Source: Clostridiales bacterium (GTDB lineage: Bacteria > Bacillota > Clostridia > Oscillospirales > CAG-272). From it: a stretch of DNA of 62,780 nucleotides. A program made the translations under genes and the position numbers. Numbering within the stretch: the first letter of the stretch is position 1; every line of letters starts with the position of its first letter. The notes under the pieces are model-generated. The model saw only the letters and a program-made list of their open reading frames with translations, ran no database searches and was not told the origin of the DNA. The stretch lies in assembly GCA_012837425.1 (NCBI GenBank), contig DURE01000048.1:1-62780 (forward strand), given 5' to 3'. Shown piece by piece: positions 1,420 to 29,445 of the stretch.

Positions 1420-1448
1420 TTGACAAATTCAGTTTGCCTGTGTATAAT
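1420..1448 (+). promoter_or_regulatory. Promoter of the aromatic operon
   Basis: Perfect consensus TTGACA (1420-1425) and TATAAT (1443-1448) with a 17-base spacer. The transcript would begin near 1455 and carry the leader peptide and attenuator before aroF. Confidence 0.9.
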
Positions 1449-1488
1449 AATATGCAAGCAAAAAATACCGGATGCAAGAGGCCACAGG

Positions 1489-1554
1489 ATGAAAATCTAC
1501 TCGGCAAGCGCATACTACTTTTATTACTTCTTTAGCTTTTGTCTAAAGAAGTGA
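1489..1554 (+). CDS. Tyr/Phe-rich leader peptide of the aro operon
   Basis: A 21-codon open frame starts at ATG 1489 and ends at TGA 1552. It encodes five Tyr (codons 4, 9, 10, 12, 13) and four Phe (codons 11, 14, 15, 17), with seven of the eight codons 9-15 and 17 clustered at 1513-1539. AGAGG lies about nine bases before the start. It is immediately followed by a pause-type hairpin (1526-1552), a potential antiterminator and a terminator. By analogy with the enteric pheA and trp leaders, it should sense charged tRNA-Phe and tRNA-Tyr and so set transcription of the downstream aromatic operon. Too short for ordinary gene callers. Confidence 0.85.
   Translation: MKIYSASAYYFYYFFSFCLKK
1526..1552 (+). 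promoter_or_regulatory. Leader hairpin 1:2 of the attenuator
   Basis: ACTTCTTTAG (1526-1535) pairs perfectly with CTAAAGAAGT (1543-1552) around a seven-base loop. The 5' arm lies inside the Tyr/Phe codon run, as a transcription-pausing hairpin would. Confidence 0.7.
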
Positions 1555-1620
1555 TTTGTGCTGCCGCGGAAATAGTACTTCCATAAGAGTATATAGACAA
1601 CAGGAAGGCTGCGCAGAATC
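1553..1620 (+). promoter_or_regulatory. Candidate antiterminator pairing
   Basis: GAUU (1553-1556) and UGUGCUGCC (1557-1565) can pair with AAUC (1617-1620) and GGCUGCGCA (1607-1615), with one U-U mismatch and one bulged G. This uses up the terminator's 5' arm. A ribosome at the leader stop codon would cover 1553-1565 and block it; one stalled on Tyr/Phe codons would leave it free. Confidence 0.6.
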
Positions 1621-1643
1621 ACTGCGCGGCCTTCTTGTATTTT
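1604..1643 (+). terminator. Attenuator terminator before aroF
   Basis: A 13-bp stem (1604-1616 with 1622-1634) closed by a five-base loop, followed by TTGTATTTT. It lies between the leader peptide and aroF, in the correct orientation to stop operon transcription early. Confidence 0.85.
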
Positions 1644-1705
1644 CCGGCATTTGATTTTCATACCTCAAGACACAGCTTGGCACCGGAAACACGGAGGTGG
1701 CATAA

Positions 1706-2710
1706 ATGATAGTCGTACTGAAAAAAGGCACTTCAAAAGAACAAAAAGAGAGTCTTTGCAAATGGTTTGAGAATATGGGCTTATCCACTCATATCTCACA
1801 AGGGGTATATCACACGATAATCGGGCTTATCGGTGACACAAGCAAGGTTGACATCTCCCTGCTTGAGAGCCTCTCGATTATCGAGTCGGTAAAGCGCATT
1901 ACCGAGCCCTTCAAGAAGGCCAACCGCAAGTTTCACGAGGAGTCGGCGGTCATCGACGTCTCGGGCAGGAAGATCGGCGCCGGGCACTTTCAGATAATCG
2001 CCGGCCCCTGCTCGGTGGAGTCGCGCGAGCAGCTCACGACGATTGCCGAGAGCGTCAAGGAGGCGGGGGCCGGCCTGCTGCGCGGCGGAGCCTTCAAACC
2101 CCGCACCTCTCCCTACGACTTCCAAGGGCTTCACGCCGAGGGCATAAAGCTTTTGCTTGAGGCAAAAAAACAAACCGGGCTTCCTATTGTGTCAGAAATC
2201 ATGAACATCAACGACCTTGACCTCTTCGCCGAGGTCGACGTGGTTCAGGTCGGCGCGCGGAATATGCAGAACTTCGACCTCTTAAAAGCACTCGGCAGAA
2301 CAAACAAGCCTGTGCTGCTCAAGCGCGGACTTGCAAACACCCTAAAGGAGCTTTTGATGAGCGCCGAGTATATCATGGCCGGGGGCAACGAAAAGGTAAT
2401 CCTTTGCGAGCGGGGCATCCGGACATTTGAAACCTACACGCGCAACACGCTTGATTTGTCGGCGGTGGTCGCGCTGCATGAGCTTTCACACCTTCCGGTC
2501 ATAGTCGACCCAAGCCATGCTACCGGGCTTTCAAGATTTGTCGGGCCGCTGGCTCTGGCCGCCGCGGCCGCTGGGGCCGACGGGCTGATGATTGAGGTCC
2601 ACAACGACCCGCAGCACGCCCTCTGCGACGGCCCTCAGTCGGTTACCCCTGAGCAGTTCTCAAGAATTGCAAAAAAGGTGCGGCGGGTCCGGGAGGCGAT
2701 GGCAGAATGA
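1706..2710 (+). CDS. aroF: 3-deoxy-7-phosphoheptulonate (DAHP) synthase
   Basis: Condenses phosphoenolpyruvate with erythrose-4-phosphate, the entry step of the shikimate pathway. The 334-residue protein is of the type I-beta form: residues 1 to about 70 form a ferredoxin-like regulatory domain, and the barrel follows with AGPCSVES (99-106), [22 protein letters not shown], the Asp of VDPSHATG and metal-site EVHNDPQ. Its length and N-terminal domain match the Thermotoga-like enzymes that are feedback inhibited by Tyr or Phe, which fits the Tyr/Phe attenuator upstream. ATG 1706 follows ACGGAGGTGG. The stop overlaps tyrA by four bases. Confidence 0.95.
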
Positions 2711-3543
2711 CTGTCGGGATTGTGGGGCTGGGGCTTATCGGCGGCTCGCTGGCAAAGGCATACAAAAAAGCCGGCGGGATAACCGTTTTTGGATACGACA
2801 TAGATACCCAGACCGAGCAGCTTGCGCTTATCTCGGGCGCTATTGACCGGGCTCTCACAGAAAAGACGCTCCCCGACTGCGACTGCATATTTTTGGCCAT
2901 CCTCCCCGACGCAGCTATCGGGTGGCTGTATGCCAATGCAGGCAAAATATCCCCCCGCACGCTGGTTTTGGACTGCTGCGGCACAAAGCGCAAAATCTGC
3001 GAGGCAGGATTCAGGCTTGCCGCAAAATACGGGTTCGAGTTTGCCGGCGGCCACCCGATGGCCGGCACGCATAAGTGGGGATTTGCCCACAGCCGCGCCG
3101 ACCTGTTCTCGGGCGCCTGCTTTGTCATAGTCCCCCGCGTCTATGACGACATCTCGCTGCTTGAACGTATAAAGAAGTTTGTACTGCCCGCCGGATTTGC
3201 CGGCATCTCGGTGACTACAGCCGAGGAGCACGACCGCCGGGTCGCCTTCACCTCGCAGCTTGCCCATATTGTCTCAAACGCCTATATCAAAAGCCCCATG
3301 GCAAAGGAGCACCGGGGAGTTTCGGCCGGCTCCTATCAGGACCTCACCCGGGTCGCGTGGCTCAGCCCCGGCATGTGGACGCCGCTTTTTCTTGAAAACA
3401 GCAACAATCTGATACGCGAGCTCGACATCCTTATAAAATCGCTCGGGGAGTACCGCGAGGCGCTCGCGTCGGGCGATGCCGGTACGCTCTATCGGCTGCT
3501 CGACGAGGGGAGGCGGCGCAAGGAGGAGGTGGACGGAAATTAA
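2707..3543 (+). CDS. tyrA: Prephenate dehydrogenase
   Basis: Oxidatively decarboxylates prephenate to 4-hydroxyphenylpyruvate, the tyrosine branch. It is 278 residues, a dehydrogenase without a fused chorismate mutase or ACT domain. A Rossmann GLGLIGG loop (residues 7-13) marks NAD(P) binding, HPMAGTHKWGF carries an expected active-site His, and FTSQLAHIVSNAY the second conserved His segment. The start overlaps aroF by ATGA, so translation is probably coupled. Its stop codon shares one base with the proposed ATT start of aroB. Confidence 0.92.
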   Translation: MTVGIVGLGLIGGSLAKAYKKAGGITVFGYDIDTQTEQLALISGAIDRALTEKTLPDCDCIFLAILPDAAIGWLYANAGKISPRTLVLDCCGTKRKICEAGFRLAAKYGFEFAGGHPMAGTHKWGFAHSRADLFSGACFVIVPRVYDDISLLERIKKFVLPAGFAGISVTTAEEHDRRVAFTSQLAHIVSNAYIKSPMAKEHRGVSAGSYQDLTRVAWLSPGMWTPLFLENSNNLIRELDILIKSLGEYREALASGDAGTLYRLLDEGRRRKEEVDGN

Positions 3544-4597
3544 TACTTCTGTTTTAACTGTCAACACGCCCTCAAAAAAATATGACGTAATTCTGGGGCG
3601 CGGAATTCTGGTCGGGGCCGGCAGGCTGACCGCAGGGGTAAGGCGGCCGGGGCGGGCGGTTATTGTCACCGACAGCAACGTCGACCGGCTGTACTCCGAC
3701 CGGCTCGATGCCTCTTTGTGCGATGCCGGTTTCGAGACGGTGAAATTCGTCTTTCCTGCCGGCGAGAAGTCCAAAAACGTCCCGACCCTGCTCTCGCTGC
3801 TGAATTTCATGGCCGGGGGCCGGATAACAAGAGATAGCACCGTCTTTGCGCTGGGCGGCGGGGTGGTAGGAGACCTTGCCGGGCTTGCCGCCTCGCTCTA
3901 CATGCGCGGGGTCGGGCTGGTCCAGCTCCCCACCACTCTGCTTGCCGCCGTCGATTCCTCGGTCGGCGGGAAAACCGCGGTCGACCTTCCTGCCGGGAAA
4001 AACCTCATGGGGGCTTTTTACCAGCCCGACCTTGTAATCTGCGACACCGACACGCTCGGCACGCTCCCGGATAGCGAGTTTTCAAACGGCTGCGCCGAGG
4101 TGATAAAATACGCCTTCATTAGTGATGCCTCAATTCTTGACATGCTTGACGGCAGCCGGATTGACGAGCTTATCTCCCGGTGTGTTGCCATAAAGCGCGA
4201 CATCGTGACAGCCGATGAGCATGACCGGGGCGAGCGGCAACTCCTCAACTTCGGCCACACATTCGGCCACGCAATCGAAAAATGCAGCGGCTACACAATC
4301 CCCCACGGCAGCGCGGTTGCCGCCGGTATGGTTATAATGGCCACCGCCGCCGTTAATAAAGGACTATGCGACACCATAAGCCTTGAGCTGCTCAAAACGG
4401 CGCTGCGTTCCTGCGGTCTGCCGGTTGAGACACATTATTCCGAAGCCGAACTGTTTGACACAATCCAAAGCGACAAAAAGCGCTCATCCGACCGGATTAC
4501 GCTTGTTGTCCCCCGCAGGGTCGGGCTGTGCGAGCTGACGGAAGTAACCCTCGACATAGCCCGCGAATTCCTCAGGCTTGGTATGGGAGGTTTGTAA
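3539..4597 (+). CDS. aroB: 3-dehydroquinate synthase, apparent ATT start
   Basis: Cyclises DAHP to 3-dehydroquinate using NAD+ and a divalent metal. The 352-residue product has the usual length and motifs: GGGVVGDLAG for NAD+, the LPTTLLAAVDSSVGGKT block, NGCAEVIKYAF, and the metal ligand His residues in NFGHTFGHAIE. No ATG, GTG or TTG starts the frame near the family's N-terminus. An ATT at 3539 follows a strong AGGAGGAGGT by about nine bases and gives the expected beginning. The only ATG, at 3476, would add 21 basic residues from inside tyrA. aroB begins in the tyrA stop region, suggesting coupled translation. Confidence 0.9.
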   Translation: MNTSVLTVNTPSKKYDVILGRGILVGAGRLTAGVRRPGRAVIVTDSNVDRLYSDRLDASLCDAGFETVKFVFPAGEKSKNVPTLLSLLNFMAGGRITRDSTVFALGGGVVGDLAGLAASLYMRGVGLVQLPTTLLAAVDSSVGGKTAVDLPAGKNLMGAFYQPDLVICDTDTLGTLPDSEFSNGCAEVIKYAFISDASILDMLDGSRIDELISRCVAIKRDIVTADEHDRGERQLLNFGHTFGHAIEKCSGYTIPHGSAVAAGMVIMATAAVNKGLCDTISLELLKTALRSCGLPVETHYSEAELFDTIQSDKKRSSDRITLVVPRRVGLCELTEVTLDIAREFLRLGMGGL

Positions 4598-4598
4598 C

Positions 4599-5882
4599 AT
4601 GGATGCCATCATCACACCCCGGTCGCTTGGGGGCGACATTGCCGCCATCCCCTCAAAGTCGCACCTGCACCGGCTGCTCATATGCGCCGCACTCGGAGAC
4701 TTACCCCTGAAAATCCCCTATCCGGTCAGTGTAATGCCGGAGGACATCAGGGCCACTGTGGGATGCCTCGCCTCTCTCGGCTCGGATATAAAAACCGAGG
4801 GCGACTGCCTTGTGGTAGGCCCGCTCGACCGCGAGGCTACAAGCATAGCTTGGCTTGACTGCGGAGAGAGCGGCTCGACATACCGCTTTTTGGTTCCCGT
4901 GGTCCTGGCGCTGGGGCGACCGGCGGTCTTTCACCTCTCGGCAAGGCTGCCAAGCCGCCCCATGGACGACCTTTTTACGGCGCTTGAAGCCCACGGCGCC
5001 AGAATTGAGGGCAGGGGCAGCCCGGATGTGTTTGTCACAGGGAGAATTTCACCCGGAAAATATATAATTCCCGGCAACATATCCTCCCAATATGTCACCG
5101 GCCTTCTGCTCGCGCTGCCGCTCCTGCCGAGAGATAGCGAAATTATAATCACCGGCAAGCGCGAGTCACAAGGCTACATCACCATGACGCTCGGCGTGCT
5201 CCGGGAGTTCTCGGTTGATATAAAGCCGACAAAGACCGGTTACCTCATCCCTGCCCTGCAGAATTTCCGCTCGCCAAAGACTATTAACCCCGAGGGCGAC
5301 TGGTCGAATTCGGCCTTCTGGCTGGCCGCCGGCGCCATTCGCGGGGAAGGAATAAGGGTCACCGGCCTTATGCGCGATACCTCTCAGGGCGACAGCGCGA
5401 TATGCGAAGCTCTGCAGCGCCTCGGCGCCTGTGTCGAGACATATGGAGATTATGTTGCCGTGAGCCCCGGAAGGCTGCGCGGAATAAGTATTTATGCCGC
5501 CGACATACCAGACCTTGTGCCGGCCATCGCCGCCGTCGCGGCTGCGGCCGAGGGAGTGACGGTAATTGAGGGAGCCGGGCGCCTGAGGCTCAAGGAAAGC
5601 GACCGGCTGAGCAGCGTATCGGCCGCGCTTAACGCGCTGGGCGGGCATGCCGTGTCCGACAGCGATTCAATAACAATATACGGCACCGGCAGTCTTGCCG
5701 GCGGGAGAGTTGATTCATACACCGACCACAGAATAGTAATGATGGCGACTGTTTGCTCGGTTATCTGCAAAAACACGGTGACTATTTCAGGCGCCGAGGC
5801 AACCGACAAATCCTACCCCGGCTTTTTCTCTGATTTTGCCGCGCTGGGCGGCAGGGTCATAAAAGGAGGTGGCAAAACATGA
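4599..5882 (+). CDS. aroA: 3-phosphoshikimate 1-carboxyvinyltransferase (EPSP synthase)
   Basis: Transfers enolpyruvate from PEP to shikimate-3-phosphate. The 427-residue protein shows the family blocks in order: SKSHLHR near residue 21, CGESGSTYRFL, SSQYVTGLLLALPL, ESQGYITMTLG, EGDWSNSAFWL, RLKESDR and YTDHRIVMM. The Lys, Ser and Arg residues in these blocks are the phosphate and PEP ligands. ATG 4599 follows GGGAGG by eight bases and starts one base after the aroB stop, so I prefer it to the in-frame ATG at 4578. The stop overlaps the aroC start (ATGA). Confidence 0.95.
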   Translation: MDAIITPRSLGGDIAAIPSKSHLHRLLICAALGDLPLKIPYPVSVMPEDIRATVGCLASLGSDIKTEGDCLVVGPLDREATSIAWLDCGESGSTYRFLVPVVLALGRPAVFHLSARLPSRPMDDLFTALEAHGARIEGRGSPDVFVTGRISPGKYIIPGNISSQYVTGLLLALPLLPRDSEIIITGKRESQGYITMTLGVLREFSVDIKPTKTGYLIPALQNFRSPKTINPEGDWSNSAFWLAAGAIRGEGIRVTGLMRDTSQGDSAICEALQRLGACVETYGDYVAVSPGRLRGISIYAADIPDLVPAIAAVAAAAEGVTVIEGAGRLRLKESDRLSSVSAALNALGGHAVSDSDSITIYGTGSLAGGRVDSYTDHRIVMMATVCSVICKNTVTISGAEATDKSYPGFFSDFAALGGRVIKGGGKT

Positions 5883-6961
5883 GCTCCACATGGGGACGCA
5901 ATATAAAGATTTCAATTTTCGGCCAGTCGCACTCGGCGGCGGTCGGGGTCGTAATAGACGGCCTGCCCGCCGGCTTTAAGGTAGATCTGCCGGCGCTCAT
6001 GACCTTCCTGCGCCGGCGCTCGCCGGGCAGAAGCCGGCTGTCCACCCCGCGCCGCGAGACCGACGAGGTCGAGTTTGTCTCGGGAATTGTGGGCGACACG
6101 CTTTGCGGGGCGCCGCTCTGCGCCATAATAAAAAACGCCGATGTTCGCCGGGGAGACTATACGGAATTTGCCGACCTGCCCCGCCCCGGGCATGCCGACT
6201 ACACTGCCGCGGTAAAGTTTGGCGGGCACCAGGACCCCTCGGGCGGCGGACACTTCTCAGGCCGGCTAACCGCCCCGCTCTGTGTCGCCGGCGGCATCTG
6301 CGCCCAGATTCTTGCCGCGCACAATATTCATGTCGCCGCACATATCGAGAAAATCGCCGGTGTTACAGATAAGAGATTTGACCCCGTGATGCTCAGTGTC
6401 AACGATTTTTTGAGCCTCACGCACGAGCCGCTGACAGTCATAGACCCGGTGGCGGGTGAAGCGATGGCCGGTGCAATTGAGACGGCGAGGGCCGAGGGCG
6501 ACTCGGTCGGCGGTGTGGTCGAGTGCGCGGTCATAGGACTTGAGGCCGGGGTGGGCTCCCCGATGTTTGAGGGCATGGAAAACAAAATCGCCTCGCTGGT
6601 ATTCGGCATTCCGGCCGTCAAGGGAATCGAGTTCGGTAACGGCTTTGAGAGTGCTGCCCTGTGCGGCAGCGAGAACAACGACCCGTTTATATTCTCGGAC
6701 GGCGATGTAAAGACCAAAACCAACAACCACGGCGGGATTTTAGGCGGGATTACCTCCGGCATGCCTCTGATTTTCAGAGTAGCCATAAAGCCGACGGCCT
6801 CCATTGCAAAACCGCAGCAAACCGTCAGCCTAAGCGGGCGCCGCGAGAAGGATCTGCGCATCACCGGTCGACACGACCCCTGCATTGTCCCGCGTGCGGT
6901 TCCGGTGATAGAAGCCGCGGCCGCGCTGGCTGTATATGATTCTATCCTCACAAAACACTAA
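5879..6961 (+). CDS. aroC: Chorismate synthase
   Basis: Makes chorismate from EPSP with reduced FMN. Its 360 residues carry the three signature regions: GQSHSAAVGVVIDGLP at the N-terminus, GHQDPSGGGHFSGR in the middle, and the C-terminal GRHDPCIVPRAVPV. RRSPGRSRLSTPR and TNNHGGILGGI are also diagnostic and bind FMN and substrate. Overlap with aroA suggests translational coupling. It closes the common pathway encoded in this operon. Confidence 0.96.
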   Translation: MSSTWGRNIKISIFGQSHSAAVGVVIDGLPAGFKVDLPALMTFLRRRSPGRSRLSTPRRETDEVEFVSGIVGDTLCGAPLCAIIKNADVRRGDYTEFADLPRPGHADYTAAVKFGGHQDPSGGGHFSGRLTAPLCVAGGICAQILAAHNIHVAAHIEKIAGVTDKRFDPVMLSVNDFLSLTHEPLTVIDPVAGEAMAGAIETARAEGDSVGGVVECAVIGLEAGVGSPMFEGMENKIASLVFGIPAVKGIEFGNGFESAALCGSENNDPFIFSDGDVKTKTNNHGGILGGITSGMPLIFRVAIKPTASIAKPQQTVSLSGRREKDLRITGRHDPCIVPRAVPVIEAAAALAVYDSILTKH

Positions 6962-6979
6962 CTTCTCAGGAGATTATAT

Positions 6980-8122
6980 ATGGAATTTTCGGATATGAGA
7001 ACCTCAATTGACAAAATCGACTTGCAGATTACCGACCTTATTGTAAAGCGCATGAAGCTTTCCGATGAAATTGCCGCATACAAAGCCAAACACAACCTGC
7101 CGGTGCATGACCCGCAGCGCGAGCGGCAGAAGCTTGCCGACATAGCCGCCCGGGTGGGCGACGACATGGCGCAGGTGACCGACGCCCTTTTCTCGGTGAT
7201 ATTTGACCTGTCGCGCTCCCGGCAAAACCGGATAATTTCGGGAGACTCGCCTCTGAAAAAGATGATACGCGAGGCTATTGCAAACACCGACCCGCAGTTT
7301 CCGACACGCCCGCTGGTGGCCTGTCAGGGCGTTGAGGGTGCCTATTCGCAGCTTGCCTGCGAGAGAATCTTCCCCTCCGGGAACATCATGTATTTCAGCA
7401 GTTTTGAGAGTGTCTTCTCGGCGGTCGGGCAGGGGCTCTGCAGATACGGTATCCTGCCAATTGAAAACAGCACCGCCGGCTCGGTCAGCCGGATATATGA
7501 CCTTATGATGGAGCAGGATTTTTATATTATTCGCTCCTGCCGGGTGAAAGTCGACCACTGCCTGCTTGCCAAACGCGGAACTAAATTCGAAAACATCCGG
7601 GAGATAATTTCCCACGAGCAGGCCATAGCCCAGTGTCAGGGCTTTCTTAAGACTCTGAAGAACGTAAAAATAACCACCTGCGCGAACACCGCCGAGGCCG
7701 CGGCGACAGTGGCAAAATCCGGCCGGGATGACCTAGCGGCCCTCTCCTCGCAGAGCTGTGCCGGACTCTACGGGCTTGACTGCCTTGTCCGCTCGGTTCA
7801 GGACAAGGGCAGCAACTACACGCGCTTTATCTGCATTTCAAAAGAGCTCGAAATCTATCCCGGCGCAAACCGCACAAGCCTTATGATTGTGCTTCCCAAC
7901 CGCTGCGGCTCGCTCTACCACGCGCTCTCACGCTTTTTTGCGCTGGGTATCAACCTGATAAAGCTGGAAAGCAGGCCGCTGGCCAATACCGACTTTGAGT
8001 TTATGTTTTACTTCGACCTTGACACCCCGGTTTATTCCGACCACTTCCTGCGACTGTTCGACGACCTTGAAGGGGCGGTGACCAGCCTGAAATACCTCGG
8101 CAGCTACACGGAGATTGTCTGA
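6980..8122 (+). CDS. pheA: Bifunctional chorismate mutase / prephenate dehydratase (P-protein)
   Basis: Converts chorismate to prephenate and then to phenylpyruvate. Residues 1 to about 90 are an AroQ-type chorismate mutase helix bundle (RTSIDKIDLQITDLIVKR, then HDPQRERQK). A prephenate dehydratase domain follows with LPIENSTAGSV and the catalytic NYTRF segment. The last 80 residues form an ACT domain with the ESRP motif that binds phenylalanine for feedback inhibition. CAGGAG precedes the start. This mutase also supplies prephenate for tyrA, which has no mutase of its own. Confidence 0.95.
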   Translation: MEFSDMRTSIDKIDLQITDLIVKRMKLSDEIAAYKAKHNLPVHDPQRERQKLADIAARVGDDMAQVTDALFSVIFDLSRSRQNRIISGDSPLKKMIREAIANTDPQFPTRPLVACQGVEGAYSQLACERIFPSGNIMYFSSFESVFSAVGQGLCRYGILPIENSTAGSVSRIYDLMMEQDFYIIRSCRVKVDHCLLAKRGTKFENIREIISHEQAIAQCQGFLKTLKNVKITTCANTAEAAATVAKSGRDDLAALSSQSCAGLYGLDCLVRSVQDKGSNYTRFICISKELEIYPGANRTSLMIVLPNRCGSLYHALSRFFALGINLIKLESRPLANTDFEFMFYFDLDTPVYSDHFLRLFDDLEGAVTSLKYLGSYTEIV

Positions 8123-8123
8123 G

Positions 8124-9353
8124 ATGAAAGGCAGTCGCAAATACGGACTTGTCGGCCGGCACCTGTCGCACAGTTACTCCCCCGCCATTCACGCGATGAT
8201 TGGGGGGTACGAATACCGGCTCTGTCCGCTCGAGCCCGGGGAGCTGGCTGACTTTATTAGGGCCACCGACCTTGACGGGTTTAACGTCACCATCCCTTAC
8301 AAAAAAGAGGTGATTCCCTTCTGTCAGGAACTCTCGCCGAGGGCTGCGGCGATCGGCAGCGTCAATACCATGCTCCGCCTGCCGGACGGCGGCTGGCGGG
8401 GAGATAATACCGACTACGATGGGTTTTTGCACCTGCTGGGAGCCGACGCCGCGGCCTTTTGCGGGAAAAAAGCCCTGATTCTCGGCGACGGCGGGGCGGC
8501 GGCGACTGTCCGCGCGGTGCTGGGCGACCTTAATATCAGCCACGAAACCCTGCGGATATCAAGGCATGTCATACCGGATATACACGACCGGCATTATGAC
8601 GCCGACCTGATTGTCAACGCAACGCCTGTCGGTATGTACCCCGAAAACGGGAAGTCTCCGGTTGACCCCGGTGACTTCCCCGCCTGCCGGCTGGTGCTCG
8701 ACCTGATATACAACCCCGCTAAAACCGCCCTGATGCTCATGGCCGAGCGGCTCGGCATACCCGCCCGTGGCGGGCTAGGCATGCTCTGCGCTCAGGCGGT
8801 AAGGGCCGCCGAGCTCTTCCTCGGGGAAAGCCTGCCCGAGGGGCTTGTCGACAGGATAACCGAAAAAATCAGGCGGGATATGCTGAATGTGCTGCTTGTC
8901 GGCATGCCGGGCTGCGGCAAGACGACAATAGGGCGCCGCCTCGCCGGTCTTACCGGCCGGCCGCTGCTCGACACCGACGAGCTTATCCAAGAAAAGGCCG
9001 GCATGAGTATTCCCGATATATTCGAAAAACACGGGGAGACATACTTCCGGGAGCTTGAAACCGCGGTGCTGCGCAAGGTGACAAAGGAGAGCGGAAAAAT
9101 CATTGCCACCGGCGGCGGCGTGGTGACGGTACCCGAAAACTTTGATTTAATCCGCCAGAACAGCATATGCGTTTTCCTTGACCGGGAAAAAGAGAAACTT
9201 GACATATCCGGCCGGCCGCTCTCGCGCTTTGTCGGAATTGACGGGCTCTACCGGCAGCGCATTCCGCTCTACCGCGCCTGGGCAGATTTTACTTTCCGGG
9301 TTTACGACCCCGACACCACCGCCGGGAACATAAAAAAGGAGCTGGGATTATGA
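8124..9353 (+). CDS. aroE/aroK: Shikimate dehydrogenase-shikimate kinase fusion
   Basis: One 409-residue chain joins two consecutive shikimate steps. Residues 1 to about 250 are shikimate dehydrogenase: SHSYSPAIH, the catalytic Lys of NVTIPYKKEV, the Asp of DNTDYDGF, a GDGGAAA NADP loop and NATPVGMYP. Residues about 255-409 are shikimate kinase: Walker A GMPGCGKTTIG, DTDELI, and ATGGGVV for shikimate. No stop or start signal separates them. I use ATG 8124, ten bases after ACGGAG, rather than TTG 8115. The gene starts just after the pheA stop and overlaps aroQ. Confidence 0.93.
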   Translation: MKGSRKYGLVGRHLSHSYSPAIHAMIGGYEYRLCPLEPGELADFIRATDLDGFNVTIPYKKEVIPFCQELSPRAAAIGSVNTMLRLPDGGWRGDNTDYDGFLHLLGADAAAFCGKKALILGDGGAAATVRAVLGDLNISHETLRISRHVIPDIHDRHYDADLIVNATPVGMYPENGKSPVDPGDFPACRLVLDLIYNPAKTALMLMAERLGIPARGGLGMLCAQAVRAAELFLGESLPEGLVDRITEKIRRDMLNVLLVGMPGCGKTTIGRRLAGLTGRPLLDTDELIQEKAGMSIPDIFEKHGETYFRELETAVLRKVTKESGKIIATGGGVVTVPENFDLIRQNSICVFLDREKEKLDISGRPLSRFVGIDGLYRQRIPLYRAWADFTFRVYDPDTTAGNIKKELGL

Positions 9354-9805
9354 AACTATTAGTAATCAACGGACCCAACCTGAACCTTTTGGGCATACGG
9401 GAACCCGAAATTTACGGAAATAAGACGCTGGCCGACCTTGAGCGCGAGCTGCGCGAATATTGCGCCGGCAAGGATATTGAACTTGAGTTTTTCCAGTCAA
9501 ACCACGAGGGTGCGATTGTCGACAGGATTCAGGAGGCCATGGGGCGCTGCGACGGTATAATAATAAACCCCGCGGCCTACACGCATACCAGCATTGCCAT
9601 ACCCGATGCAATAAGGGCATCAGGGATCCCGGCCGTTGAGGTCCACCTCTCGGACATCGGCTCCCGCGAGTCATACCGCCGGATTTCCTATACTACTGAC
9701 GCCTGTGTTGCGGTCATTTCAGGCCGGCATTTTGAGGGCTACAAAGAGGCTGTTGACATTTTCCGCAAGAAGCTGTACAATGAATTATTGGCCAATACCA
9801 AGTAA
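9350..9805 (+). CDS. aroQ: 3-dehydroquinate dehydratase, type II
   Basis: Dehydrates 3-dehydroquinate to 3-dehydroshikimate. The 151-residue protein is the dodecameric type II form, with INGPNLNLLGIREPEIYG (catalytic Arg and Tyr), FFQSNHEGAIVD, INPAAYTHTS and the catalytic His of EVHLSDI. The start overlaps aroE/K by ATGA. It is the last gene of the operon and completes the pathway, since no aroD is needed. Confidence 0.96.
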   Translation: MKLLVINGPNLNLLGIREPEIYGNKTLADLERELREYCAGKDIELEFFQSNHEGAIVDRIQEAMGRCDGIIINPAAYTHTSIAIPDAIRASGIPAVEVHLSDIGSRESYRRISYTTDACVAVISGRHFEGYKEAVDIFRKKLYNELLANTK

Positions 9806-9919: not shown

Positions 9920-10426
9920 GTGAAAAAGCCTGAGCTTGAATTTGAACAAATTTATATGGACCACTACAAGCGCGTCTATGCTTTCCTGCTTAAGCTCTGC
10001 AGGGACCCCGACGTTGCCGAGGATCTGACCCAGGAAACCTTTTATCAGGCGTACAAATCACTGCCGAGGTACAACGGCCGGTGTGAAATGTTCACCTGGC
10101 TGGCCGCCATTTCAAAAAATGTTTTTTTTAAATACCTGCGCAAGAAAAAGACCGAGTCGCTCCTTATCGACCTGTATATTTCAGACCTCACCGCACCGAT
10201 AACCGAGGAACCGGGATACAGGCTGATGCGCGAGGTGGATATCACGCGTGTCAGACGGGCTATCGCCGGTATTCCGAAAAAGTACAGCGAGGTGCTGATA
10301 CTGCGGATATACGGCGAGCTGTCTTATGAAGAAATTGCAAAAAAACTCGGCATATCGGTAAGCTCGGCCAAGGTCATATTTTTCCGCGCCAAGAATTACA
10401 TCAAGGAGGTGCTGCTCAATGAGTAA
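9920..10426 (+). CDS. ECF-type RNA polymerase sigma factor
   Basis: A 168-residue sigma-70 family protein of the extracytoplasmic function type. Region 2 spans about residues 8-75 (DPDVAEDLTQETFYQAYKSL, then the FTWLAAISKNVFFKYLRKKK segment). Region 4 spans about 110-165 with a helix-turn-helix at LSYEEIAKKLGISVSSAKV. A GTG start at 9920 follows CAGGAGG. The gene overlaps a zinc-binding anti-sigma gene by eight bases, the usual arrangement, so activity is probably held in check by it until an envelope signal arrives. The stimulus and regulon cannot be read from sequence. Confidence 0.9.
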   Translation: MKKPELEFEQIYMDHYKRVYAFLLKLCRDPDVAEDLTQETFYQAYKSLPRYNGRCEMFTWLAAISKNVFFKYLRKKKTESLLIDLYISDLTAPITEEPGYRLMREVDITRVRRAIAGIPKKYSEVLILRIYGELSYEEIAKKLGISVSSAKVIFFRAKNYIKEVLLNE

Positions 10427-16406: not shown

Positions 16407-16575
16407 ATCCGGTCGCCCAATAACCGAAATTCCCGGATTGCAAGACGGCACACGGCTGTCTTTCATTGTCACAGTAACCTTTTGCAGCTGTGTCAACATA
16501 TAATAATGACAGCAGGTAAAAAGCCGCGCCTTTCCGAACCTGCGATGATGGCATTATCTGCAGAATAAACAGCAA
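16407..16575 (+). other. Gene-free stretch before the NiCo riboswitch
   Basis: No coding region is seen. A TATAAT at 16499-16504 has only a poor -35 (AACCTT) 17 bases upstream and is the best candidate promoter for the riboswitch transcript. Confidence 0.4.
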
Positions 16576-16658
16576 ATCTGAACAGGCTGCGCGCCATGCC
16601 GCGCGTGAAGCCGGGCCGCCCAGCGGTAGCAGGAACCATACCTGTGGGACAGTAGGAT
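16576..16658 (+). promoter_or_regulatory. NiCo riboswitch (czcD motif)
   Basis: The segment contains AACAGGC, two GC hairpins, GCCGGGC, a third hairpin GCAGG/CCUGU and the diagnostic UGGGACAGU, in the order of the NiCo aptamer. AUC at 16576-16578 pairs with GAU at 16656-16658 to close it. The next gene is a cation-diffusion facilitator, the classic target. Edges are by eye. Confidence 0.8.
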
Positions 16659-29205: not shown

Positions 29206-29239
29206 ATGCATACAGCTATATGCTGAATTTATATTCTGA

Positions 29240-29330
29240 AGAGTAAAGGCTCTGGCGTTAAGTGTCGGGTGAACGGGGAGTTGTCACCCGAACGAAAGGC
29301 TAGGTGCGGACGGTGGCTACCGGTGCCGCA
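29240..29330 (+). promoter_or_regulatory. Tetrahydrofolate (THF) riboswitch
   Basis: The leader contains GAGUAAAG, GGCGUUAAGUG, the hairpin CGGGUGA/UCACCCG (29266-29290), AACGAAAGGC and GGUGC, matching the THF aptamer order. GGCUCUGG (29248-29255) pairs with CCGGUGCC (29320-29327) to close it. The operon encodes folate uptake and polyglutamylation, the known targets. CCTTC/GGAAGG further down can pair over the ribosome site (29403-29435). Confidence 0.8.
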
Positions 29331-29445
29331 ACTGCCTGCGGTCAGGGTCTTGCATCCCGCTTCATAAGGCAATTAAGGAAGACAGGACATGCAGGTCATG
29401 ATGCCTTCTTTCATGCCGTATGGGTGTGGAAGGGGGGGTTTTTTA

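Follow-up and report, generated by a model that had tools for sequence, protein, structure and literature searches.

A candidate ribosome-mediated attenuator with tyrosine and phenylalanine codons ahead of the shikimate operon in clostridia

Leader-peptide attenuation is classical in enteric bacteria, where it is known from pheA and trp. The leader described here lies in a 62,780-nucleotide window, the whole stretch of DNA that was analysed, which is contig C28 of a 1.85-Mb assembly of a Clostridiales bacterium. Like the enteric attenuators, it combines regulatory codons in a short open reading frame with mutually exclusive 1:2, 2:3 and 3:4 pairings, an intrinsic terminator and a predicted release by ribosome stalling. 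Unlike them, it carries Tyr and Phe codons together, precedes the whole shikimate operon, belongs to Bacillota and, in the window, has a stop codon that overlaps the antiterminator strand. The leader RF01743 encodes Leu and Phe codons. It is listed for Lactococcus lactis (PMC2864571) and is, like the present element, a candidate Gram-positive leader motif, but no RF01743 match occurs at the window leader. Histidine leader-peptide attenuators are reported in bacilli (PMC2965389) and in some Eubacteriales, Erysipelotrichales and Bacillus cereus-group species (PMC9413887). As described in these two sources, they share with the present element the use of leader-peptide attenuation by Bacillota, some Eubacteriales among them, in which T-boxes are common, and they differ in using His codons ahead of his genes. 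The motif uORFC-13-1 precedes aroF in Acholeplasma and consists of an upstream open reading frame with at least one Phe codon and a possible promoter, ribosome-binding site and start codon, just 5' of a terminator (PMC8632094). It is represented by 24 sequences from Acholeplasma and environmental DNA, and its description mentions Tyr as an end product (PMC8632094). Both elements place an upstream reading frame and a terminator before aroF, a likeness at the level of description (PMC8632094). No description of a Tyr/Phe element in clostridia was found in the literature searched, a coverage that leaves out most subscription journals. The mechanism is textbook; as far as that literature goes, the family, its clostridial breadth, the joint use of Tyr and Phe ahead of an entire pathway and the multiple constraints acting on a single strand are new.

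The element is most probably (about 90%) a transcription attenuator of the classical ribosome-mediated kind, reading charged tRNA-Tyr and tRNA-Phe. Computation established its parts, how they are conserved and covary, and how the position of the ribosome affects equilibrium folding. The features of the window are as follows.

1420-1448, + strand: promoter TTGACA-17-TATAAT, 12/12 consensus matches.
1489-1554, + strand: leader peptide ORF, MKIYSASAYYFYYFFSFCLKK and a stop codon, with five Tyr and four Phe codons (reading frame; same-genus homologue).
1500-1512, + strand: P2 5' arm, in the codons just 5' of the aromatic run; 11 bp with 1557-1568 (covariation).
1523-1536, + strand: P1 5' arm, mostly Tyr/Phe codons; 14 bp with 1541-1555 (covariation).
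1541-1555, + strand: P1 3' arm, which overlaps both the stop codon and the antiterminator strand (pairing with 1523-1536).
1550-1565, + strand: antiterminator strand AGTGATTTGTGCTGCC, family anchor consensus AAAGTGATTTGTGCTGC (pairing; occurrence in all three frames in homologues).
1557-1568, + strand: P2 3' arm, which is the distal antiterminator strand (pairing with 1500-1512; covariation).
1607-1623, + strand: antiterminator partner, made of the terminator 5' arm, its loop and the first bases of its 3' arm; 15 bp, -21.6 kcal/mol (covariation).
1600-1638, + strand: intrinsic terminator hairpin, 17 bp (1600-1616 with 1622-1638), followed by ATTTTCC (folding).
1706-2710, + strand: aroF, 3-deoxy-7-phosphoheptulonate synthase, first gene of the operon (NF006421, 4.9e-147, above cut-off).
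2707-9805, + strand: tyrA, aroB, aroA, aroC, pheA (chorismate mutase/prephenate dehydratase), an aroE-aroK fusion and aroQ (NCBIfam).

The leader ORF has 21 codons, nine of which are aromatic, exactly as first predicted. Its translation is predicted, with an AGAGG at 1477-1481, 7 bases 5' of the ATG. The homologous peptide in a locus of the same genus (L002) is MKLYAASAYYFYYFFSFRLKK. Richness in Tyr and Phe alone is not decisive, since the window has 1913 nested ORFs of 12-40 codons, seven of which, the leader included, reach 36% Phe/Tyr. What is decisive is the conjunction of an aromatic leader with the structures and the homologues.

Downstream, aroF, aroB, aroA, aroC and aroQ pass curated NCBIfam cut-offs. 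The best NCBIfam matches of tyrA, pheA and aroE-K are to those functions but fall below the cut-off. The spacing suggests that the eight genes from aroF to aroQ form one transcript. Among 24 named loci with the homologous (type-I) element, some on contigs that stop early, the genes 3' of aroF include tyrA in 22, aroA in 21, aroB and aroC in 20 each, aroE-K in 19, and pheA and aroQ in 15 each. Beyond the aro genes of the window, an ECF sigma factor gene, with its best match in the SigM family, begins at 9920.

The region 1455-1650 folds at -74.2 kcal/mol (z = -7.2), and none of 200 shuffles was equally stable. The original prediction had a pause hairpin at 1526-1552, a 12-bp antiterminator (1553-1565 with 1607-1620) and a 13-bp terminator. 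All three structures are recovered by folding, with the antiterminator extended to 15 bp (1550-1565 with 1607-1623) and the terminator to 17 bp. The hairpin corresponds to P1, which by folding appears to be chiefly the inner part of an anti-antiterminator, although P1 may have a pausing role. P2, missed in that prediction, sequesters the distal antiterminator strand. By folding, P1 and P2 together would form the anti-antiterminator that hides the antiterminator strand of the window when the ribosome is absent. The proposed mutual exclusivity of antiterminator and terminator is borne out by overlapping pairings and covariation, and it extends to the anti-antiterminator. The antiterminator strand was also placed just past the leader stop codon; this is incorrect, as the TGA at 1552-1554 falls within it. 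The tract after the terminator, ATTTTCC, is a short U-tract, which counts against the model.

In the proposed mechanism, transcription would begin just 3' of the promoter and a ribosome would trail the RNA polymerase along the leader. When Tyr-tRNA or Phe-tRNA is short, the ribosome would stall at the Tyr/Phe codons of the P1 5' arm. P1 and P2 would then open, and the strand at 1550-1565 would be freed to pair with 1607-1623, letting the polymerase enter the aro operon. When both tRNAs are plentiful, the ribosome would reach the stop codon within the antiterminator strand and cover that strand, so that the terminator forms and transcription ends. If the leader is untranslated, P1 and P2 would mask the antiterminator strand and transcription should likewise terminate. 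The stalling, the termination efficiencies and the response of the leader to Tyr and Phe are predicted properties.

Homologous leaders were sought upstream of AroF, which is present in 19 of 39 relatives and in 260 of 395 genomes of the order (own genome counted). The named AroF loci are the best 80 of 591 candidates from genome contigs labelled Oscillospiraceae, Ruminococcaceae, Clostridia, Lachnospiraceae and others, with some labelled as other phyla. Three loci with partial AroF matches (L019, L022, L023) were excluded. The resulting 129 upstream regions, which include near-duplicates such as L043/L110 and L005/L092, contain the type-I element in 53 cases, another Tyr/Phe leader with a terminator in 45, a T-box motif in two (L018, L021), a Tyr/Phe ORF without a terminator in two and none of these in 27. 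The 45 further leaders were assigned by an automatic rule, and a few look spurious (e.g. L113, L118, L097). The core of 53 was defined by an anchor score of at least 12.85, minus L011 and L082 and plus L134, L121, L101, L099, L072 and L008 by eye; L082 resembles a member and was placed among the 45. A cruder uniform rule, requiring a Tyr/Phe-rich ORF and a terminator, selected 96/129 real regions vs 8/129 reverse complements and 7/258 dinucleotide shuffles. A promoter with at least 10/12 consensus matches lies upstream of the leader in 43/53 type-I loci vs 5/53 mononucleotide-shuffled regions.

The short frame is kept in the homologues, and the 53 leaders are rich in both amino acids, with means of 4.3 Tyr and 4.5 Phe in 25 codons and a total of two Trp. 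All 53 have at least two Tyr and at least one Phe, by an ORF picker that favours Phe and Tyr. Joint sensing of Tyr and Phe had been called unusual, but dual content is the rule among these leaders. The in-frame aromatic excess is 0.65 vs 0.17 and 0.13, a biased figure because the ORF picker prefers Phe/Tyr-rich frames. The antiterminator strand occurs in all three reading frames relative to the leader (19, 23 and 11 loci), which means that its conservation does not reflect an encoded peptide. The peptides vary widely outside Tyr and Phe, which themselves keep no fixed order. The leader stop codon lies before the antiterminator strand in 26 of the 53 loci (15 of them at -2), inside it in four (window included) and past the end of it in 23. 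Under the assumed footprint, a stop-codon ribosome covers much of the strand when the stop is at -2 or inside, and all or part of it at +18 to +29. Stops at -13 to -7 (seven loci) or +33 to +43 (six loci) leave little or none of the strand covered by that footprint, which is a point against the model.

The attenuator may instead respond to a general slowdown of translation or to nascent-peptide arrest, with the aromatic residues as the arrest motif. Aromatic runs of at least five residues are present in 43/53 leaders and could themselves slow translation. However, an arrest motif does not fit peptides that diverge outside Tyr and Phe and do not conserve their order, nor does it fit the two cases in front of genes other than aroF in which the codons match the gene (Tyr-Tyr before tyrS, and Trp before a trpB-like gene). 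An arrest-based response is highly improbable.

Covariation is seen in all three alternative pairings: between the Tyr/Phe codons and the 3' arm of the hairpin, between the codons that precede them and the distal antiterminator strand, and between that strand and the terminator 5' half. This was examined by pairing each strand with its own partner vs partners from other loci, a swap test that does not fully remove relatedness. The antiterminator and P1 swap tests, like the masked folding below, used 52 loci because L055 has no automatic terminator. For the antiterminator with the terminator 5' half, own partners gave -17.0 vs -12.0 kcal/mol for swapped ones; the own partner beat the row mean in 50/52 loci and was best or tied in 11. 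For P1 the values were -7.6 vs -5.7 kcal/mol (own partner better than the row mean in 47/52), and each of these two means was reached by 0/5000 permutations. P2 gave -10.0 vs -8.0 kcal/mol, with the own partner better in 38/53 loci (0/5000 permutations). A control region farther upstream showed no signal in the same test (-6.7 vs -6.6; 24/53). With one locus per genus (19 genera from eight families of the order), the own partner beat the row mean in 17, 19 and 14 of 19 for the antiterminator, P1 and P2, and the true mean was reached by 0/20,000 permutations for each pairing and by 9479 for the control region.

Individual antiterminator pairs switch between T-A (33) and C-G (14), between G-C (36), A-T (8) and T-A (3), and between G-C (29) and T-A (13). 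In P1, a pair switches from U-A (18) to A-U (10) at the base that converts Phe TTT to Tyr TAT, so the P1 3' arm follows the codon. An alignment of 38 of the 53 type-I loci was made for a covariance model. In it, 85.9% of P1 cells pair, vs 46-60% with partners slid by 1-3 columns and 81.4% in shuffles (0/500 as high). The P1 covariation score (0.259 vs 0.195) and the number of two-sided changed cells (27 vs 14.6) were both above 500/500 shuffles. The number of P1 pairs with a two-sided change was not above shuffles (5 vs 4.0; 149/500 as high).

These pairings also bear on control by a protein, such as a TRAP-like antiterminator or a repressor, or at aroF translation, with the leader translated but termination not the main point of control. 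Protein-controlled and TRAP-like leader systems exist in Bacillota, and P1 could be a protein site. TRAP-regulated leaders have tandem (G/U)AG repeats, whereas 1449-1640 has just five scattered (G/T)AG triplets with no tandem, and a TRAP leader was rejected on this basis. The covariation fits the 1:2, 2:3, 3:4 topology, a point against this alternative, and protein or translational control is highly improbable.

Switching was modelled by equilibrium folding, not kinetics. The transcripts ended just 5' of the terminator 3' arm, and 30 bases were masked to represent the ribosome. In this in silico folding, the position of the ribosome decides which structure forms. The expected number of antiterminator pairs in the window is 13.8 with the ribosome stalled on Tyr/Phe codons (mean), 0.1 at the stop codon and 0.2 with no ribosome. 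The means for the 52 loci are 10.3, 1.7 and 4.0. Compared with the stop state, stalling at the best codon gains three or more antiterminator pairs in 48/52 loci (44/52 by the mean over stall codons); the gain is below three in 4/52 and 8/52, respectively. In L056, L060, L067 and L093, the stop-codon ribosome leaves 9.9-14.8 antiterminator pairs, so the antiterminator is not prevented. These results suggest that P1 and P2 act as an anti-antiterminator in the window and many relatives, where untranslated leaders should terminate. Default termination is probably not universal, since in 15/52 loci folding with no ribosome yields at least three more pairs than the stop state; untranslated leaders in these loci might read through. 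The conserved frames, the covarying alternative stems and the masked folding together support the leader-peptide attenuation put forward in the original prediction. The outcome that the prediction named as refuting, homologues with no short frame or no compensatory change, did not occur among the 53 leaders.

The least probable alternative is an aromatic T-box or other ligand-sensing riboswitch with an incidental ORF: T-boxes are common in these bacteria (an E 0.001 match in 39/39 genomes, above cut-off in 36, with five matches in the own genome) and a further aroF locus, L133, has a T-box motif by eye, but the window leader has no Rfam match at the gathering threshold (E up to 10 gives only hits far below it), the leaders of 20 further loci have none, and the Tyr/Phe codons stay in frame while the antiterminator strand does not. 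A T-box was rejected for the window leader and the 20 further loci, with no RF00230 covariance-model match, as were RF01743 and the other Rfam 15 families at gathering score. Near-misses such as mir-1, ar35 and SAM-II (E 0.7-7.1) were discarded as far below gathering. Three of the five T-boxes of the own genome were examined and lie upstream of valS, gatA (where the gap may hold another gene) and a sodium/solute symporter gene.

The spread of the element was followed with the covariance model R1, which consists of P1 and the antiterminator. R1 matches were found in 41/297 genomes of the order (E 0.01), 19/341 of the class (E 0.001) and 4/299 of the phylum (E 0.0001), with the own genome counted in each and with three, two and one false matches, respectively. 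These large scans missed genomes because 15-18 candidates were scored per genome. In the order scan, 36 of the 41 matches lie directly upstream of an AroF match. An AroF-like frame follows in 15/19 loci other than the window in the class scan (by eye), and L219 and L220 precede such a frame in the phylum scan. Model matches L174-L176, L187-L194, L196, L213, L214 and L221 were rejected as false, having no aromatic gene or proper leader.

The element also has other genes behind it. In L195 the gene is tyrS and the leader reads MTRNNVFGTGNYYCKE, with a terminator present and a weak model match (E 0.02). In L199/L217 it is a chorismate mutase/prephenate dehydratase gene that heads another run of aromatic genes. 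A phenylacetate-CoA ligase-like gene follows a Tyr/Phe leader in L215/L216 and is itself followed by an ACT-domain-like gene (by eye), perhaps an arrangement for phenylacetate salvage to phenylalanine. In L177 the gene encodes a TrpX-like ABC substrate-binding protein. L173 has a TrpB-like gene and a sodium/solute symporter gene, and its leader, MKNANCIAKYWYFYFTQVAR, has a Trp codon inside the Tyr/Phe run. In the own genome, a symporter gene that shares its best NCBIfam match with the symporter of L173 carries a T-box instead (L224). That the sensing codons track the controlled gene is a lead and not a statistic, because these are single examples. It is somewhat probable that the element represents a single old attenuator family that serves the Bacillota aromatic regulon and can be retargeted. 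In it, a strand near the anchor consensus would pair in turn with the sensing codons, the preceding codons and the terminator, and the codons, which form a hairpin arm, would be swapped per gene: Tyr and Phe for aroF and pheA, Tyr for tyrS, and an added Trp for the trpB-like gene.

In a broad clostridial group whose named records include many gut-derived genomes, the element is a candidate switch for the supply of Tyr and Phe through the whole shikimate pathway. With it, the leader-peptide attenuators so far reported in Bacillota gain a Tyr/Phe family of considerable size, and it suggests that codon content is re-tuned to the controlled gene. A covariance model would let annotation detect such short ORFs. 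Dozens of natural variants are available for testing the coupling of transcription and translation in clostridia. In Bacillus subtilis the two processes are pictured as uncoupled; if the retargetable family is real, then, given how widespread it is, ribosomes would have to stay close behind RNA polymerase in the early leaders of these clostridia.

A second leader type occurs 5' of aroF in L005, L009, L012, L079, L107, L112 and L117, with a GKA(Y/C)-like tail in several. By eye its antiterminator strand is different, for example GAGTTTGGCTG in L079, and it seems to use the same logic. The aroF of Angelakisella massiliensis, a cultured relative, also has a second-type leader (L076). In another genome, L153 has FMN and SAM riboswitches at 1702-1837 and 2581-2680, near the aroF attenuator.

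The window has a second promoter with 12/12 matches at 1382-1354 on the - strand, divergent from the aro promoter. It may drive an MntP-like manganese efflux gene (518-1258, - strand; PF02659), whose 5' UTR apparently spans about 250 bases (start codon by eye) and contains no Rfam family at gathering score. A NiCo riboswitch lies at 16569-16654 (+ strand, 60.1 bits) and a THF riboswitch at 29237-29364 (+ strand, 85.6 bits).
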